A stretch of DNA of 64,000 nt from Mycobacterium sp. HUMS_12744610. Lineage in GTDB: Bacteria > Actinomycetota > Actinomycetes > Mycobacteriales > Mycobacteriaceae. The stretch spans positions 4,154,001-4,218,000 of the forward strand of contig NZ_JBGEDP010000001.1 of assembly GCF_041206865.1 (NCBI RefSeq). Reading direction: 5' to 3'. The position numbers were made by a program, and so were the translations under genes. Under the pieces are notes generated by a model that saw only the letters and a list, made by a program, of their open reading frames with translations, was not told the origin of the DNA and ran no database searches. This document shows positions 41,728-60,249 of the stretch, in pieces; within the stretch, counting starts at the first letter, position 1; each line of letters begins with the position of its first letter.

Positions 41728-43202
<1,475 letters not shown>

Positions 43203-43254
43203 TATGACTTCACCGCCCTCTCCTCATCACTACGTTCTGCATCGTCGGTGGTGG
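43203..43254 (-). repeat. degenerate MIRU between infB and rbfA
   Basis: The minus strand carries GACGATGCAGAACGTAGTGA and GAGGAGAGGGCGG, clearly related to the MIRU core seen at 47575 and 58441. The in-frame peptide ([14 protein letters not shown]) ends in TAATG, overlapping the rbfA start, but no in-frame ATG remains at its 5' end. Confidence 0.75.
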
Positions 43255-46017
43255 TCAGGTCCGTTCCTTCTGCACCAGCTCGTAGGACTCGATGATGTCG
43301 CCTTCCTTGATGTCGGAATAGCCGAGCGTCATACCGCACTCGAAGCCCTCGCGGACCTCGGTCACGTCGTCCTTCTCCCGGCGCAGCGAGTTGATCGTGA
43401 GGTTCTCGGTGACCACGACGTTGTCGCGCAACAGGCGGGCCTTGGCGTTGCGGCGAACCACCCCGGAGCTGATCATGCAGCCCGCGATGATGCCCACCTT
43501 GGAGGACCGGAAGATCGCGCGAATCTCCGCGCGGCCCAGCTCGTTCTCCTCGTAGATCGGCTTGAGCATGCCGCGCAGGGCCTTCTCGATCTCGTCGATC
43601 GCCTGGTAGATCACCGAGTAGTAGCGGATCTCCACACCCTCGCGGTTGGCGAGCTCGGTCGCCTTGCCCTCGGCGCGCACGTTGAACCCGATGATCACCG
43701 CGTCCGAGGCCGACGCCAGGTTGACGTTGGTCTCGGTGATGCCACCGACGCCGCGGTCGATGACGCGCAGCGCCACCTCGTCGTCCACCTGAATCCCCAT
43801 CAGGGCCTCTTCCAGCGCCTCGACGGTACCGGCGTTGTCGCCCTTGAGGATCAGGTTCAGCTGGCTGGTTTCCTTCAGCGCCGAGTCCAGGTCCTCCAGG
43901 CTGATCCGCTTGCGGGAGCGCGCGGCCAGGGCGTTGCGCTTACGCGCGCTGCGCCGGTCGGCGATCTGGCGGGCGATGCGGTCCTCGTCGACGACCAGGA
44001 AGTTGTCCCCGGCGCCGGGCACCGACGTGAAGCCGATGACCTGCACCGGACGCGACGGCAGCGCCTCCTCGACGTCCTCGCCGTGCTCGTCGACCATGCG
44101 GCGGACCCGGCCGTAGGCGTCGCCGGCGACCACCGAGTCGCCGACGCGCAGCGTGCCGCGTTGCACCAGCACCGTGGCCACCGGCCCCCGACCGCGGTCC
44201 AGGTGCGCCTCGATCGCCACGCCCTGGGCCTCCATCTCGGGGTTGGCCCGCAGGTCCAGGGCGGCGTCGGCGGTCAGCAACACCGCCTCGAGCAACTGCT
44301 CGATGTTGGTGCCCTGCTTGGCCGAGATGTCGACGAACATCGTCTCGCCGCCGAATTCCTCAGCCACCAAACCGTATTCGGTGAGCTGCCCGCGAATCTT
44401 GGCCGGGTCGGCGCCCTCGACGTCGATCTTGTTGACCGCCACCACGATCGGCACGTCGGCGGCCTGCGCGTGGTTGATGGCCTCCACCGTCTGCGGCATG
44501 ACGCCGTCGTCGGCGGCCACCACCACGATCGCGATGTCGGTGGCCTTGGCGCCGCGGGCCCGCATGGCGGTGAACGCCTCGTGGCCCGGGGTGTCGATGA
44601 AGGTGATCGGCCGCTCCACGCCGTCGTGCTCGACCGTCACCTGGTAGGCGCCGATGTGCTGCGTGATGCCGCCGGCCTCGCCCTCGCGGACGTTGGCCTG
44701 CCGGATCGTGTCCAGCAGCCGCGTCTTACCGTGGTCGACGTGGCCCATGACGGTGACCACGGGGGGCCGGACCTGCAGGTCCTCCTCGCCACCCTCGTCC
44801 TCGCCGTAGGTCAGGTCGAAGGACTCCAGCAGCTCGCGGTCCTCGTCCTCGGGACTGACGACCTGAACGTTGTAGTTCATCTCGCTGCCCAGCAGCTCGA
44901 GCGTCTCGTCGCCCACCGACTGCGTGGCCGTCACCATCTCACCGAGGTTGAACAGCGCCTGCACCAGCGCGGCCGGGTTGGCGTCGATCTTCTCGGCGAA
45001 GTCGGACAGCGACGCGCCGCGGGCCAGCCGGATCGTCTCGCCGTTGCCGTGCGGCAGCCGCACACCGCCGACGACCGGCGCCTGCATGTTCTCGTACTCG
45101 GCGCGTTTCGCCCGCTTGGACTTGCGGCCGCGCCGGGGTGCGCCACCGGGACGGCCGAACGCGCCGGCCGCGCCGCCGCGCTGGCCCGGACGGCCGCCAC
45201 CGCCGCCACCACCCGGACGGCCGCGGAAACCGCCGCCGGCGCCGGGTGCGGCACCGACGCCACCGCCCGCGCCACCGCCGCGGTAGTTGCCGCCGCCACC
45301 GTCAGAGCGGCCGCCCCCGGGGCGAGCGCCTCCGGGCCGGGGTGCGCCGGTCCGCGGCGGGCGGGGCCCACCGGCGGCCCCGCCGGGACGCGGGGGCATG
45401 TTGCCGGGCGAAGCACCCGGCCGGGGCGCTCCGGGCCGGGGCGCCCCGGGGCGGGGCGCCACCGGACGCGGGATGGGCCGGTCGACGGGCTGGGCCGAGG
45501 AGAACGGGTTGTTGCCGACGCGCGGGGTGCGCACGCCGGGCTTGGGCGCGGGCCCGGGGCGCGGCCCCGGCGTCGCACCACCGGGGTGCGGCCCCGACTG
45601 GCCGGGTTGCTGTCCGGGCGCCGACGGCTTGGGCGCCGGGGCCGGCGGGCGTCCGGGGGTCGGCGCCGCCGGCCGCGGGGTTGCGGCGGGCGGGGCCTGC
45701 GGCGCCTGGGCCGCGGGGACCTCCGGCCTGGCGGGCGCCGGTGCGGCCGCGCCGTTGCCGACGGACTTGCTGATCGCCTTGTCGAGGGCCTGGTCGAGCG
45801 ATTTGTCGGGGCCCTTGGCGGGCGCCTTGGCCGCGCCCTTGTCGGGGGCCGGCTTCCCGCCGCCGAAGGACTCCCGGAGCCGGCGGGCAACCGGCGCCTC
45901 CACGGTCGACGACGCGGATTTGACGAATTCGCCCTGTTCGTTCAGCCGGGCGAGAACTTCCTTGCTGGTGACACCGAGTTCCTTGGCCAACTCGTGTACG
46001 CGGGCCTTACCTGCCAC
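43255..46017 (-). CDS. infB: translation initiation factor IF-2
   Basis: 920 residues. An N-terminal IF2N domain ([19 protein letters not shown]) is followed by a long Pro/Gly/Ala/Arg low-complexity linker (about 60-300), a second IF2N-like segment, the G domain ([17 protein letters not shown], then [17 protein letters not shown] and VAVNKIDV) and C-terminal domains that bind initiator tRNA. The GTG start follows CAGGAGA. It is part of the rimP-nusA-ylxR-infB-rbfA-nrnA cluster. Confidence 0.98.
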
Positions 46018-46531: not shown

Positions 46532-47575
46532 CTAGCCCGAATGTCCGATCGCCCGGCTGGCACCCGGACCGGGTTGGTCCTCGGCGTGCGCCGGCGAATC
46601 CCCGCGGATGTCGATGCGCCATCCGGTGAGCCGGGCGGCCAGCCGCGCGTTCTGCCCCTCCTTGCCGATGGCCAGCGACAGCTGGAAGTCGGGCACCACC
46701 ACGCGGGCGGCGCGGGCGGCCTGGTCGATGATCGACACCGAGACGACCTTCGCCGGGGACAGCGCGTTGGCGACGAAACGGGCCGGGTCCTCGTCGTAGT
46801 CGATGATGTCGATCTTCTCCCCGGACAGCTCGCTCATCACGTTGCGGACCCGCTGCCCCATCGGGCCGATGCACGCGCCCTTGGCGTTCAGGCCGGGAAC
46901 GTTCGACCGCACCGCGATCTTGGAGCGATGGCCGGCCTCCCGGGCGACCGCCACGATCTCCACCGACCCGTCGGCGATCTCGGGCACCTCCAGGGAGAAC
47001 AGCTTGCGTACCAGGTTGGGGTGCGTCCGCGACAGCGTGATCAGCGGCTCGCGCGACCCGCGGGTCACGCCGACCACGTAACACCGCACCCGATCGCCGT
47101 GCTCGTAGCTCTCCCCCGGGACCTGCTCCGCGGCCGGAATCACCCCCTCGGACGCCTTGGTCTCGGTGCCTATCCGCACCACCACCAGCCCGCGAGCATT
47201 GGCCCGGCTGTCGCGCTGGATCACGCCGGCGACGATCTCGCCCTCCCTGGTGGAGAACTCGCCGTAGGTGCGTTCGTTCTCGGCGTCGCGGAAACGCTGC
47301 AGCATGACCTGCCGCGCGGTGGTGGCCGCGATGCGGCCGAAACCCTCGGGGGTGTCGTCCCACTCGCTGATGACGTTGCCGTCCTCGTCGGTCTCGCGGG
47401 CCATCACCCGCACGACACCGGTTTTGCGGTCGATCTCGATGCGGGCGTCGTTCTGGTGGCCCTGGGTGTGCCGATAGGCGGTGAGCAGCGCCGATTTGAT
47501 CGTCTCGAGCAGCTCGGTGACCGAGATGCCCCGGTCCACCTCGATGGCATGCAGCGCCGCCATGTCGATGTTCAT
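46532..47575 (-). CDS. nusA: transcription termination/antitermination factor NusA
   Basis: 347 residues, typical for actinobacteria. N-terminal RNA-polymerase-binding domain ([20 protein letters not shown]), S1 domain ([20 protein letters not shown]), then KH1 and KH2 ([20 protein letters not shown] and [18 protein letters not shown]). It modulates pausing and termination. Its ATG shares one base with the stop of a 17-residue MIRU peptide (TGATG), so its translation is coupled to rimP through the MIRU. Confidence 0.97.
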
Positions 47576-47628
47576 CAGCGCCGCTCCTCTTCATCGCTCA
47601 GCTCTGCATCGTCGCCGGCGCGGTTCAT
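47575..47628 (-). repeat. single MIRU element encoding a 17-residue micro-ORF between rimP and nusA
   Basis: The 54-nt micro-ORF on the minus strand reads [17 protein letters not shown]. Its ATG overlaps the rimP stop (ATGA) and its TGA overlaps the nusA ATG (TGATG); a GAAGAGGAG run precedes the nusA start. The sequence is one diverged copy of the 53-bp unit arrayed at 58441. Confidence 0.88.
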
Positions 47629-48173
47629 GCTTCGGCCTCCGTCCTGCGGGCCCGATCCGTCCCGGCCAGATCCTTCACGGCCAGGTCCAGCTCGGCCCGG
47701 CTCGGCGGGGAGAACTCCACCTGCACCACCGCGTTCACGATCTCGGCGAGGGGGATCTCGCGGACCGTCAGGCTGCGGCCGTCACGCACCACCAGCGCGA
47801 CGGCGTCCTCGCAGGTCTCGCCGACCCGGCCGGTGAGCCGGGAGCCGTCGGACAACGTCGCCTCGACCTTGCGGCCGCGGGCGCGGCGAAAGTGTTTGGC
47901 GCTGGTCAGCGGGCGCTCGACCCCGGGCGAACTGACCTCGAGCACATAGCGGTCCCCCGCGTTGTCCAGGCCGTCCAGCAACGCCGACGCCGAACGCGAC
48001 AGGGCCGCTATCGTGTCGAGGTCCGGCGCGGTGTCGCCGTCGGCGACCACCGTGATCCGCGGCGGGCGCGCCCGGGTGTCGATGACCACATCCTCGATCT
48101 CGAAGCCTGCGCGCGCGAACTCCCCACCGAGCAGCTCGATCACCTGCGTCTGCGAAGGTAGCCCGGTGGTCAC
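47625..48173 (-). CDS. rimP: ribosome maturation factor RimP
   Basis: 182 residues. The N-terminal domain has [22 protein letters not shown], then the [17 protein letters not shown] helix and [28 protein letters not shown], the RimP signature, plus an SH3-like C-terminal domain. It assists 30S assembly. The GTG start at 48173 follows GAGGAG. It is first in the rimP-nusA-ylxR-infB-rbfA-nrnA cluster, with a MIRU immediately after. Confidence 0.95.
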
Positions 48174-48322
48174 GGCGAGCTCCTCATCTTGAGTTGTCCG
48201 GTCGACTGGCGAGTGGCGCGGTGGAACGGTGACGGCCGCCGTTCCCCGAGAACCGTGTCTCAACGATACGCCAGGGATCGCCGATGGTGGCGTGATCGCC
48301 TGGTCAAGGTCCTGACACCGGT

Positions 48323-48328
48323 TAGCCT
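48323..48328 (+). promoter_or_regulatory. -10 hexamer upstream of putative lipoprotein gene
   Basis: TAGCCT, 7 nt before an ATG at 48336 that opens an 8-codon leaderless uORF rather than the main gene. Confidence 0.5.
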
Positions 48329-48335
48329 CGTGCCA

Positions 48336-48359
48336 ATGGCAGGATATTGCTGTGCCTAG
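48336..48359 (+). other. leaderless uORF with tandem Cys codons
   Basis: ATG GCA GGA TAT TGC TGT GCC TAG encodes MAGYCCA. It begins 7 nt after TAGCCT and overlaps the GTG (48352) of the downstream lipoprotein gene in another frame. Cys-codon uORFs that begin leaderless are known to control translation in mycobacteria. Confidence 0.4.
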
Positions 48360-48885
48360 CGCATCACCCGTGACCAACAGGCGGGGCGTGCTTGCCGGCG
48401 GCGCGGCCCTGGCCGCGCTGGGTGTGGCGGTGTCCGCCTGCGGCCAGCCCAAACCCAAGCCCCCCGCCGTCGAAGAATTGCTGGGACCGTTGGACCAGGC
48501 GCGCCACGACAGTGCGCTCGCCGCCGCGGCCGCGGCCGCCGTCGGCAACCCGCCGCAGGTCGCCGCGGCGCTGTCCGTGGTCGCCACCCAGCGCGCCGCG
48601 CACGCGCGCGCCCTGTCCACGGAGATCTGGCGGGCCTCCGCCAAGTTGGGTGCGCCCTCGAGCACGACGAGCGAGACCACCAGCCCCAGCCCGACCGGCG
48701 AGGCGGCGCCCCCCCCGCCGCCCCCGCTGTCCGACGTGGTCGAGTCGCTCCGCACGTCCGCCGAGACCGCCGGGCGCCTGGTGGCCACCTCGTCGGGCTA
48801 CCGGGCCGGGCTGCTCGCGTCCATCGCCGCGAGCTGCACCGCGAGTTACTCGGTCGCCCTGGCACCCGCGGGGCCGACGCCGTGA
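48352..48885 (+). CDS. putative Tat-exported lipoprotein (Rv2843-like)
   Basis: 177 residues. The N-terminus has a twin-arginine stretch ([23 protein letters not shown]) with a lipobox-like Cys near residue 30. A Pro/Thr-rich linker ([15 protein letters not shown]) separates two helical segments. It is probably membrane-anchored. Alternative start GTG 48370 gives the same signal peptide. Its stop overlaps the next start (GTGA), so it forms a pair with the DUF4439 protein. Function unknown. Confidence 0.8.
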
Positions 48886-56135: not shown

Positions 56136-57974
56136 TCAGGCGGCGCCGCGCACGGCCCGCGTCAAATGGTCGGCGTGCAACTGCTCGAGCCGCACGGCCG
56201 GCGCGCCGAGTTGGCGGGCCAGCTGCCCGGCCAAACCCAGCCGCACATACGACGTCTCGCAGTCCACGACCACCGCGGCCGCACCCTCGGCGGCCAGCCG
56301 GGTCGCCGCGATGCGGGTGCGGCCCAACGGGTCCGGCCCACCCGTGGCCCGCCCATCGGTGAGCACCACGACCAGCGCGCGCCGGGTTCGGTCGCGCACG
56401 CGCTCCCGGACGATCAGCTCGCGCGCGGCCAGCAGGCCCTCGGCCAGCGGGGTCTTGCCGCCGGTGTCGAACCGGGCCAGCCGCCGTCCGGCGATGTGCG
56501 CCGACGACGTCGGCGGGAGCACCAGCCTGGCCTCCCGCTGGCGGAACGTGATGACCGCGACCTTGTCGCGGCGCTGGTAGGCGTCGCGCAGCAGGGACAG
56601 CGCGGCGCCGCCGACGGCGGCCATGCGGTCCCGTGCGGCCATCGAACCGGACGCGTCGACGACAAAGACCACCAGATTGCCCTCGCGCCCTTCGCGGATG
56701 GCCAGGCGGACGTCGTCGGGCCGTGGGCGCAGCGGTCCCCCGCCGCCGTGCCCGGCGGCCGACAGCAGCGTGGCGAACAGGTGCAGACCGCGCGCCCCGG
56801 AGCCGGTGTCGCCGGCCTCGGTCGCCCCGATCACGCCGCCGGTGGCGTTGCGGGCGCGCGATCGCCGCCCGGGCGCACCGGCGCCGACGCCCGGAATCCG
56901 TAGCGCGCGGGTCCTGAAGGTCTGCGACGGCGGCGCGCTGGGCCGCGGCGGCTGCGGACGCGACGGCTGCGATCGCGAATCCTGTTGTGGCGCAGCATTC
57001 TCGGGAGTGTTGCAGGCACCTCCGCCGGGCGGGTCGGGGTCCGGCTCGGGATCGCCGCCACCGGCCTGCGCCAGCGCTGCGTCGAGTTGCTCGCGCTCGA
57101 TGCCCGGGTCGTCGAACGGGTCGCGGCGGCGCCGGTGCGGCAACGCCAACTCGGCCGCGACCCGGATGTCCTGTTCCTCGACGGTGGCCGCGCCGCGCCA
57201 GGCGGCGTGGGCGACCGCGGTGCGGGCCAGCACGAGGTCGGCCCGCATGCCGTCGACGTCGAACGCGGCACACAGCGCCGCGATGCGCCGTAACTCGTTG
57301 TCCGGCAACACCACGTCGCCGACCAGGGAGCGCGCGGCCGCGATCCGCCGGGCCAGTTCGGCGTCGGCGTCGGCGTAGCGCTCGGCGAAGGCGTCGGGAT
57401 CGGCCTCGTAGGCCATCCGCTGCCGGATCACCTGCACGCGGACGTCGACATCGCGGGAGGCGTGCACGTCGACGGTCAGACCGAACCGGTCCAGCAGTTG
57501 CGGACGCAGCTCGCCCTCCTCGGGGTTCATCGTGCCGATCAGCACGAACCGCGCCTCGTGCGAATGGGAGATGCCGTCGCGTTCGACGTGCACCCGGCCC
57601 ATCGCCGCGGCGTCGAGCAGCACGTCGACCAGGTGATCGTGCAGCAGGTTGACCTCGTCGACGTAGAGGACGCCACCGTGGGCGCGCGCCAGCAGGCCCG
57701 GCGAGAAGGCGTGCTCACCCTCACGCAGCACCCGCTGCAGGTCCAGCGAACCGATCACCCGGTCTTCGGTTGCGCCCAGCGGCATCTCGACCAGGCCGGC
57801 ACCGCCGGTCGCGGCGGACAGCAGCACGGCAAGGCCGCGCACGGCGGTCGACTTGGCCGTCCCCTTTTCGCCCCGGATGAGCGCCCCGCCGATGTCCGGG
57901 CGCACGGCGCACAGCAGCAGGGCGAGCCGCAACTGGTCGTGCCCGACGATCGCGCTGAAGGGATAGGGCTTCAC
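56136..57974 (-). CDS. magnesium/cobalt chelatase-like AAA+ and VWA protein
   Basis: 612 residues. The AAA+ domain (about 1-300) has [17 protein letters not shown] and [14 protein letters not shown]. An acidic/Pro/Arg-rich linker follows (about 330-395). The VWA domain (about 430-610) has the MIDAS motif [15 protein letters not shown] and later LTDGRATGG. This is a ChlI-ChlD fusion like Rv2850c. Linked to cobO/cobB it may power cobaltochelatase with a CobN elsewhere. The GTG overlaps the GNAT stop (GTGA). Confidence 0.92.
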
Positions 57975-58441
57975 GGCAGCTCGGCCAGACCGGAACCGGG
58001 CCGCAGCATCGGCACATGCGGCACCCCGTCGTCGACGAAATCCTCACCGTCGCGGACGAACCCGTGCTGTGCATACATGTCGGCCAGATACGTCTGCGCG
58101 TTGATCCGGCACGGGTAGTCGCCGACCTCGGCCAGCGCGGCGCGCAGCAGCCGGGTGGTGTGGCCCTGACCCCGCACACTGCGTTTGGTGCACAGCCGGC
58201 CGATGCGGAACGCCTTGGTGCCCCCGGCGTGCTCCTCCATCAGCCGCAGGGTGCAGATGACTTCGCCGTCGGGCGATTCCAGCCAGAAGTGCCGGGTTTC
58301 GGCGAGCAGGTCGCGACCGTCCAACTCCGGGTAGGGGCAGGCCTGTTCGACGACGAACACCTCGACCCTCAGCTTGAGCAGCTCGTAGAGGGTTTGGGTG
58401 TCGAGGTCCTGCGACCAGGCGCGACGCAGCGGCTCACTCAT
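57971..58441 (-). CDS. GNAT/ElaA-like acetyltransferase
   Basis: 156 residues, ElaA-type [31 protein letters not shown], then [21 protein letters not shown] with the acetyl-CoA loop (RGQGHT). It corresponds to Rv2851c. The start ATG at 58441 is the last start in a chain of MIRU micro-ORFs: it shares a base with the stop of the sixth micro-ORF (TGATG) and has GAGGAGGAG 8 nt upstream supplied by the repeat. Confidence 0.9.
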
Positions 58442-58758
58442 CAGCGCCACTCCTCCTCATCGCTTCGCTCTGCATCGTCGCCGGCGCGACTCATCAGCGC
58501 CACTCCTCCTCATCGCTTCGCTCTGCATCGTCGCCGGCGCGACTCATCAGCGCCACTCCTCCTCATCGCTTCGCTCTGCATCGTCGCCGGCGCGACTCAT
58601 CAGCGCCACTCCTCCTCATCGCTTCGCTCTGCATCGTCGCCGGCGCGACTCATCAGCGCCACTCCTCCTCATCGCTTCGCTCTGCATCGTCGCCGGCGCG
58701 ACTCATCAGCGCCACTCCTCCTCATCGCTTCGCTCTGCATCGTCGCCGGCGCGACCCA
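58441..58758 (-). repeat. six tandem 53-bp MIRU repeats
   Basis: Units begin at 58441, 58494, 58547, 58600, 58653 and 58706. All are identical except one base near the outer end of the last. The unit is a mycobacterial interspersed repetitive unit of the 53-bp class. On the minus strand each copy carries GAGGAGGAG, an ATG and a stop in fixed register, and the array fills the whole mqo-GNAT gap. Copy number is likely variable between strains. Confidence 0.97.
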
Positions 58759-58765
58759 TCCTCAT
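58441..58765 (-). other. chain of six coupled MIRU micro-ORFs
   Basis: The first micro-ORF (58765 to 58706) overlaps the mqo stop (ATGA) and reads [19 protein letters not shown]. Five identical 17-residue ORFs follow ([17 protein letters not shown]), each 54 nt with its ATG sharing one base with the previous TGA. The GNAT start is the seventh in the series. Whether the acidic peptides are stable is unknown. Confidence 0.6.
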
Positions 58766-60249
58766 GCAACCTCCAGCCGTAAGGCCTTGCTGCCCCACGA
58801 CCACACCTCGTCGAACAGCGCCGGCTCGTCGGAAAGCTTCACGCCCAGGGACGGAACCATCTCCTTGAGGGTGGGAAGCCAGGTTTGGTACCGGTCGGCA
58901 AAGCACCGCCGCAGCACGTCGAGCGCGATCGGCACGGCGGTCGACGCCCCCGGCGAGCCCCCGAGCAGCCCGGCGATCGTGCCGTCCGCGTCGCTCAGCA
59001 GGGTCGTGCCGAAGTCCAGGGCCCCACCCCTGCGCCGGTCCCGCCGGATCACCTGCACCCGCTGACCGGCCACGGTCAGCTCCCAGTCCGAATCCTTTGC
59101 GCCGGGCACGAATTCCCGCAACATGCGCACCCGGCCGGGGGCGGTCAGTCGCAGCTGGCCGATCAGGTAGTTCAGCAGGGCCAGCTCGGTGACACCGACG
59201 CCGAGCATCGACAGCAGGTTGTCCGGCTTCACCGAGCGGGGAAGATCGCTGAAATGCCCGTGCTTCAAGAACTTCGGCGACCAGCCGGCGTACGGGCCGA
59301 ACACCAGCCATGCCCTGCCGTTGACCAGCCGCAGGTCCAGGTGCAGCGCGCCCAGCGGCGGGGCGCCCGGCGCCGGGACACCGTACACCTTGGCCCGGTG
59401 CGCGGCGGTGAGCGCCGGCCTGGCGGCGCGCAGGAAGCGACCCCCGATCGGGAACCCGGCGAACCCCCTGACCTCCCTGATGCCCGATCTCTGCAGCAGC
59501 GGCAGCGCATCGCCGCCGGCGCCGACGAAGACGAATTTCGCGTTGAGCCTGCGCCTTTGACCGGTCCGGCGATTGCCGACGAGCAGCGTCCAGCTGCCGT
59601 CGCCCTGGCGCGCGAGGCCGCGCACCTCGTGACCGAACAGCGCGGTGGTCCCGTGGCGCACGCAGAAGCCGACGAGCTGGCGGGACAACTCACCGAAGTC
59701 GACGTCGGTGCCGTGGGGCGCCCAGTTCAGCGCGAAAGGCTCGGAGAAGTCCCGCCCGGCGGCCATCAGGGGCAGCCGGCGCGCGAACTCGTCGGGGTCC
59801 TCGATCAGTTCGGTGCCGGCGAACAGGGGGTTTCCGGCCAGCGCCCGCCGCCGCCGCCGCAGGTAGTCGACGCGCTGCGCGCCGCGGACGAAGCTCGCGT
59901 GCGGAATCGGGTTGAGGAAGCCGCGATCGGGCACTATCCCCTTCGTGACGGCGTAGGCCCAGAATTGGCGGGTCACCTGGAATTGCTCGTTGACGTGCAC
60001 CGCCTTGCCGATGTCGATCGACCCGTCCGGGCGCTGGGGGGTGTAGTTGAGCTCGCACAGCGCCGAATGCCCGGTGCCGGCGTTGTTCCAGGGATTGCTG
60101 CTCTCGCCGGCGACGGCGTCCAGCCGCTCGATCAGGGTGATCGACCAGTCCGGTTCCAGCCGGCGCAGCAACGCGCCCAGCGTGGCGCTCATGATGCCCG
60201 CGCCCACCAGCGCGACGTCAGTCCGCGCGGCTCTGGGTTGCCTCGACAC
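58762..60249 (-). CDS. mqo: malate:quinone oxidoreductase
   Basis: 495 residues. FAD motif [20 protein letters not shown], then [26 protein letters not shown] (Mqo signature), [15 protein letters not shown] and the C-terminal [17 protein letters not shown]. It oxidises malate to oxaloacetate and passes electrons to quinone at the membrane, a TCA/respiratory step. It corresponds to Rv2852c. The GTG start has AAGGAA about 14 nt upstream. Its stop overlaps the first MIRU micro-ORF. Confidence 0.96.

Follow-up and report, generated by a model that had tools for sequence, protein, structure and literature searches.

A six-unit MIRU array chains overlapping micro-ORFs between mqo and a GNAT gene in Mycobacterium sp. 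HUMS_12744610

Six tandem MIRU units separate mqo from a GNAT acetyltransferase gene and carry six micro-ORFs, each overlapping the next, that form an unbroken chain from the stop codon of mqo to the start codon of GNAT. The array lies in a window of 64,000 nucleotides from Mycobacterium sp. HUMS_12744610 (contig NZ_JBGEDP010000001.1, positions 4,154,001 to 4,218,000). Probably, a MIRU inserted at the GNAT start, duplicated about six bases there and was amplified to six; its copies would rebuild the stop-start overlap and let ribosomes pass from mqo to GNAT.

Tandem Repeats Finder describes the array as 6.1 copies of 53 bp with 99% matches (Table 1). The sequence-only reading had reported six 53-bp units, each with a micro-ORF, in a chain running from the mqo stop (ATGA) to the GNAT ATG (TGATG), and had counted one micro-ORF of 19 residues and five identical ones of 17. 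A scripted walk of the minus strand reproduces both statements exactly: micro-ORFs 2-6 have the same predicted 17-residue peptide. All junctions inside the array are TGATG with one shared base, and the final ATG, at 58441, is codon 1 of GNAT. Together with the GNAT junction they make six, and all six read TGATGA, that is, two successive in-frame stops. Their ATG shares one base with the first of these stops and two bases with the second.

The same reading had placed a Shine-Dalgarno sequence in every unit. The motif is GAGGAGGAG, found 8 nt 5' of the ATG in micro-ORFs 2-6 and of the GNAT ATG; micro-ORF 1 has the GGAGG of the mqo tail instead. This GGAGG is perhaps the original Shine-Dalgarno of GNAT. 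Unit 1 differs from the others by a single base, ATGGGT instead of ATGAGT, and the ATGAGT of GNAT also opens units 2-6. When the array is folded as RNA, its Shine-Dalgarnos are mostly unpaired (0.71-0.85), with a lower value for the last one (0.43).

Table 1 Features of the mqo-GNAT junction, in window coordinates
Feature	Position	Strand	Basis
mqo (malate:quinone oxidoreductase), upstream gene, stop TGA 58764-58762	58762..60249	-	ORF list (start taken mechanically from it); Pfam Mqo 1.8e-202; NCBIfam
GGAGG in mqo tail, ahead of micro-ORF 1	58770..58774	-	sequence
MIRU array, six 53-bp units	58436..58760	-	Tandem Repeats Finder; six profile matches (locus L102)
ATGGGT opening unit 1, putative left-hand copy of the target duplication, differing by one base	58754..58759	-	sequence; putative role at this locus
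Micro-ORF 1, 19 codons, ATGA overlap with mqo stop	58706..58765	-	frame-walking script
Micro-ORF 2, 17 codons	58653..58706	-	frame-walking script
Micro-ORF 3, 17 codons	58600..58653	-	frame-walking script
Micro-ORF 4, 17 codons	58547..58600	-	frame-walking script
Micro-ORF 5, 17 codons	58494..58547	-	frame-walking script
Micro-ORF 6, 17 codons, TGATG overlap with GNAT start	58441..58494	-	frame-walking script
GAGGAGGAG of last unit, Shine-Dalgarno of GNAT	58450..58458	-	sequence; duplex energy -11.5 kcal/mol
ATGAGT, GNAT codons 1-2, right copy of putative target duplication	58436..58441	-	sequence; putative role at this locus
GNAT acetyltransferase (ElaA-like), downstream gene	57971..58441	-	Pfam Acetyltransf_10 8.9e-12; PDB PA0115 1.3e-24, ElaA 4.8e-19
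Cobaltochelatase/Mg-chelatase-like, next gene	56136..57974	-	ORF list; Pfam; NCBIfam TIGR02442 below its cut-off

The cobaltochelatase-like gene opens with a GTG that overlaps the GNAT stop (GTGA), and genes with CobO and CobB domains (Pfam) come after it. At this junction the nearest named relative is M. helveticum, with 95% identity in GNAT and 91% in mqo.

We shuffled the bases from the mqo stop to the GNAT start, and 2.7% of draws formed a chain with -4/-1 overlaps. This null is not used as evidence: a single unit of suitable length chains in a fraction of 0.4 to 0.9 of its shuffles. The family-wide pattern is a sounder case against chance than shuffling the window junction.

We identify the repeat as a MIRU by its length, architecture and dispersal, an assignment made independently of published M. 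tuberculosis MIRU sequences. A BLAST search of the 6.42-Mb host genome returned at least 48 pieces (40 of 60 candidates scored), grouped into 35 loci; by profile, these hold 80 units, some of them partial. The core pattern, with two mismatches allowed, matches 74 times genome-wide and its reversed control not once. It added one locus, left out of the 35-locus counts. At 34 of the 35 loci the MIRU lies on the strand of two co-oriented flanking genes, as judged by the best-scoring codon frame (codon log-odds), some of these calls being weak (downstream frame scores of 0 or less in L088 and L107).

With starts adjoining the array, 22 of these 34 loci have an overlap between the last micro-ORF and the downstream start: -4 in 13, -8 in six and -1 in three. 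L091 and L101 end at -1, as does the mqo-GNAT array. The full chain from upstream stop to downstream start, with -4, -1 or -8 overlaps and in part through alternative starts, is present in 26 loci and absent from eight. In nine of the 34 the MIRU is open in frame into the downstream gene, three of these belonging also to the 22; six have neither arrangement. The view of MIRUs as intercistronic elements able to link stop and start codons, which the sequence-only reading had taken as known, is borne out in this genome.

Spacing between cores varies among the 14 multi-unit loci. It is 53 bp in eight, 51 bp in four (L086, L088, L094 and L115, the last with one step of 48) and 23 in L090. With 51 bp, one frame is kept through the whole array. 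Four such units at L086 (G000:C1:1795778-1795973, where G000 is the host genome) run on in frame into the downstream gene, of which they may form a repeated N-terminal extension. L087 (G000:C1:1876569-1877248) has 13 units and, because its period changed to 52 bp, a chain in which every ORF has 35 codons and covers two units.

The window itself contains further MIRU sequence. A single unit (L101) occupies 47572-47628 on the minus strand, between ORFs 47625-48788 and 46532-47575; with ATGA to its left and TGATGA to its right, it has the same -1 junction as the mqo-GNAT array. A diverged core with two mismatches is found at 43225-43246, also on the minus strand, between ORFs 43255-46017 and 42768-43202, which by position and length we take to be perhaps infB and rbfA.

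MIRU matches occur in at least 66 of 118 genus genomes, our own included, with at most seven candidates scored per genome. The family is clearly wider than M. leprae and the tuberculosis complex. We examined 80 mqo-GNAT loci in the genus, and mqo lies upstream of GNAT in every one. The junction is short in 53 of them: NTGA (-4) in 45, -1 in three, -8 in two, +13 in two and 0 in one. NTGA prevails at these junctions, and Supply reportedly described in 1997 that MIRUs insert at DTGA sites.

The other 27 junctions are enlarged, 22 of them by a MIRU according to the profile. With L028, the element is present in 23 of 80, which answers the suggestion of the sequence-only reading that the same junction be sought in other mycobacterial genomes. 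At L028 and L014, units are absorbed into the end of mqo as a C-terminal extension. The chain from the mqo stop to GNAT is unbroken in 25 of the 27 enlarged junctions when -8 is allowed and in 20 when only -4/-1 are, the exceptions to the former being L063 and L070; as the loci are related, these counts are not independent. The GNAT start provides stops in two frames in 28 of the 80 relatives, so that part of the chain-keeping pattern needs no selection.

A tree of the mqo and GNAT proteins (81 rows, quick method) requires at least 15 changes of MIRU presence, or 14 if remnants count as present, gains and losses being taken together. The sister, M. helveticum (L001), has no MIRU at the junction. 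In its place stands a tandem repeat of 16 bp, similar to the mqo tail, whose overlapping micro-ORFs (11 and 10 codons) likewise make a stop-start chain. At L043, the next relative, the junction is a plain NTGA. Given these two junctions, the array most probably arose on the branch of the window itself.

The flanks of single MIRUs resemble each other. At single-unit loci we compared the octamer that precedes CGCGCC with the one that follows GGCGC. Of 64 distinct pairs, 14 have the same NTGANN hexamer left and right; re-dealing the partners gives an expectation of 1.34, and 0 of 4000 permutations reached 14. Matches come both from the host genome (5/16, 0.57 expected) and from four others (9/48, 1.21 expected). 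Agreement is weak at the two positions preceding NTGA (9 versus 4.8 expected, P = 0.039). With strict anchoring, NTGA is found on the left in 33 of the 64, on the right in 37 and on both sides in 25; none of the 39 pairs without NTGA on both sides has a matching hexamer. A first test (11/23 versus 2.8) mixed arrays with single units and is superseded; it was repeated on single units and in other genomes because arrays match by construction.

These matching flanks suggest that MIRU insertion may duplicate some six bases with the stop-start overlap at their centre, and may restore the overlap in this way. They could also be what remains when an array contracts. Relatives show a weaker signal at their mqo-GNAT junction, where positions 5-6 agree in 6 of 27 (2.7 expected, P = 0.035), and in the window the left hexamer, ATGGGT, is not identical to the right one, ATGAGT. 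At another locus of the host genome, L112 (G000:C1:5358124-5358159), the flanks share GATCGACGAGGACG, longer than the usual six bases, and the right side lacks NTGA.

We calculated the duplex energy of the GNAT Shine-Dalgarno in the relatives. Its median is -11.5 kcal/mol at MIRU junctions (n = 22, range -11.7 to -4.3) and -9.3 at the others (n = 58, range -13.1 to -2.9; P = 0.001), compared with -3.0 at 2000 random sites. At three of the 22 MIRU junctions it is weaker than -8. The stronger pairing suggests that the element supplies a replacement for the Shine-Dalgarno that it displaces.

On the reading we prefer, a MIRU would have inserted at the GNAT start codon within an mqo-GNAT operon, presumably transcribed as one. 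About six bases around that start would have been duplicated, and the element then amplified to six tandem copies. Owing to the duplicated start, a stop-free frame, the period of 53 (2 modulo 3) and one Shine-Dalgarno per copy, every copy would restore the broken overlap. With the overlap restored throughout, ribosomes leaving mqo could terminate and reinitiate through the micro-ORFs and so reach GNAT.

Such a relay need not lose ribosomes stepwise, since the strong Shine-Dalgarno of the units would allow fresh initiation to add ribosomes along the array. If r is the efficiency of reinitiation and i the fresh starts per unit, the flow f(n) = r f(n-1) + i would tend to i/(1-r). Reinitiation and fresh starts at each unit would then settle the flow at a value set by the unit, not by the copy number. 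We infer that long arrays would not multiply GNAT output; they would buffer GNAT against mqo.

The overlaps might instead reflect harmless insertion sites of a tolerated selfish repeat, whose micro-ORFs are little translated and regulate nothing. The recurrent presence and absence on the tree agrees with this, and so do the units absorbed into mqo or open into the next gene. Peptide constraint is likewise not significant: 39 synonymous changes are seen against 33.2 expected (P = 0.10), and 0 stops against 1.7 (P = 0.15). A 2025 review also states, in the passages available, that coupling likely allows MIRU insertion with minimal impact on gene expression (PMC12548453). Against it, the frame is strictly kept in 10 of 15 hand-picked single-segment junctions whose length differs from 49 (binomial P = 0.0085 at 1/3, a value that is too strong, given related rows and a 73-nt form that makes up a separate length class). 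Moreover, zero translation would be surprising with strong Shine-Dalgarnos at the starts. On balance we find this account rather unlikely.

The array could also act as a rheostat, each unit shifting GNAT translation stepwise and strains tuning GNAT by unit number. Genomes named M. asiaticum do vary at the junction, with no unit in L058, one in L068 and in L069, two in L071 and three in L056 (three by sequence, two by profile); these close relatives count as different species. More fpg1 mRNA accompanies longer repeats in M. tuberculosis, according to the available text of PMC2734929, but that effect concerns mRNA and a differently built repeat. Here, the start signals adjoining GNAT belong to the last unit whatever the unit number. 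Because the last start keeps the same local signals, the effect of copy number on GNAT is expected to be weak and saturating. Tuning by copy number is possible, and we do not favour it; the stepwise form appears improbable.

A promoter inside the array, as a third alternative, would serve GNAT directly. TA dinucleotides are absent from the array, and TANNNT, the mycobacterial -10 motif, does not occur on the coding strand of the array or of the 300 nt preceding it, which makes such a promoter unlikely. No sigma-70-like site was found between 58300 and 59100, and terminator and Rfam searches gave no match. The case for a promoter is one of precedent: passages of PMC4213456 credit the senX3-regX3 MIRU region with driving regX3 expression. 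That region resembles ours in having MIRUs, of 77 and 53 bp, between two genes, and differs in that the mqo-GNAT array lacks a -10 motif. A promoter role here is very doubtful.

That the 17-residue acidic peptide is functional and the array a dosage device is hardly credible: third codon positions are somewhat more variable (42 substitutions versus 28 and 28), but the synonymous excess is not significant, and the 51- and 52-bp arrays of the same genome (L086, L087) read the repeat in other frames. From the absence of significant constraint, the micro-ORFs more probably serve ribosome passage than a product.

The relay that we prefer shares much with known MIRUs, which in the sources at hand are intercistronic, lie on the gene strand, insert at start codons and contain a short ORF with stop-start overlaps in a 53-bp unit that may be arrayed in tandem. 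Citing Supply 1997, the review PMC12548453 describes, in the part available, MIRU insertion at start codons, with the element's own ORF coupled at -4 spacing to the gene there. In contrast, the array and GNAT junctions studied here are TGATG (-1) with a second in-frame stop. The putative six-base target duplication seen in our analysis is a further difference. One function proposed for MIRUs in 1997, as related in the accessible text of PMC2734929, was differential translation within operons. The senX3-regX3 MIRUs occur only in M. leprae and the tuberculosis complex, according to PMC4213456 as far as its text was available.

Two other systems are comparable. Termination-reinitiation at an AUGA overlap has been shown for uPPE2-PPE2 of M. 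tuberculosis (PMC11260477, partial text), where a short ORF, called a ribosome landing pad, has a stop that overlaps the next start. That case differs in being a single uORF under a riboswitch, without a repeat and with some stop suppression and fusion; translation was measured there, whereas here it is predicted from the DNA. The variable repeat upstream of fpg1 likewise forms an array that separates two mycobacterial genes, and species outside the M. tuberculosis complex lack it. Its unit is differently built and its correlation is with mRNA, and the portion of PMC2734929 at hand describes no micro-ORF relay. Phase-variable promoter repeats of M. tuberculosis are treated in PMC12817950, whose available text does not use the word MIRU. 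In a search that reached few subscription papers and did not include Supply 1997, we found no publication on a MIRU at the mqo-GNAT junction; pairing MIRU with ribosome profiling returned nothing relevant.

Stop-start coupling by MIRUs, and the way it softens their insertion, is already in print. What the present junction adds is the -1 geometry and a possible mechanism by duplication. More broadly, and with more doubt than belief, MIRUs may be self-mending insertions: their mobility would duplicate about six bases, a stop-free frame and Shine-Dalgarno would keep the operon translatable at any copy number, the displaced Shine-Dalgarno would be replaced, and long arrays would buffer the downstream gene. 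If true, three points would be new: duplication that generates coupling, replacement of the Shine-Dalgarno, and arrays as buffers that make the downstream gene independent of the translation rate of the upstream one.

MIRUs are widely used as strain-typing markers, and despite this use their effect on neighbouring genes is unsettled. With 0 to 6 units before one and the same gene, the mqo-GNAT junction is a natural series suited to the question of how MIRU number bears on translation. The hexamer duplication, if borne out, would be the step by which MIRUs restore the coupling they break.
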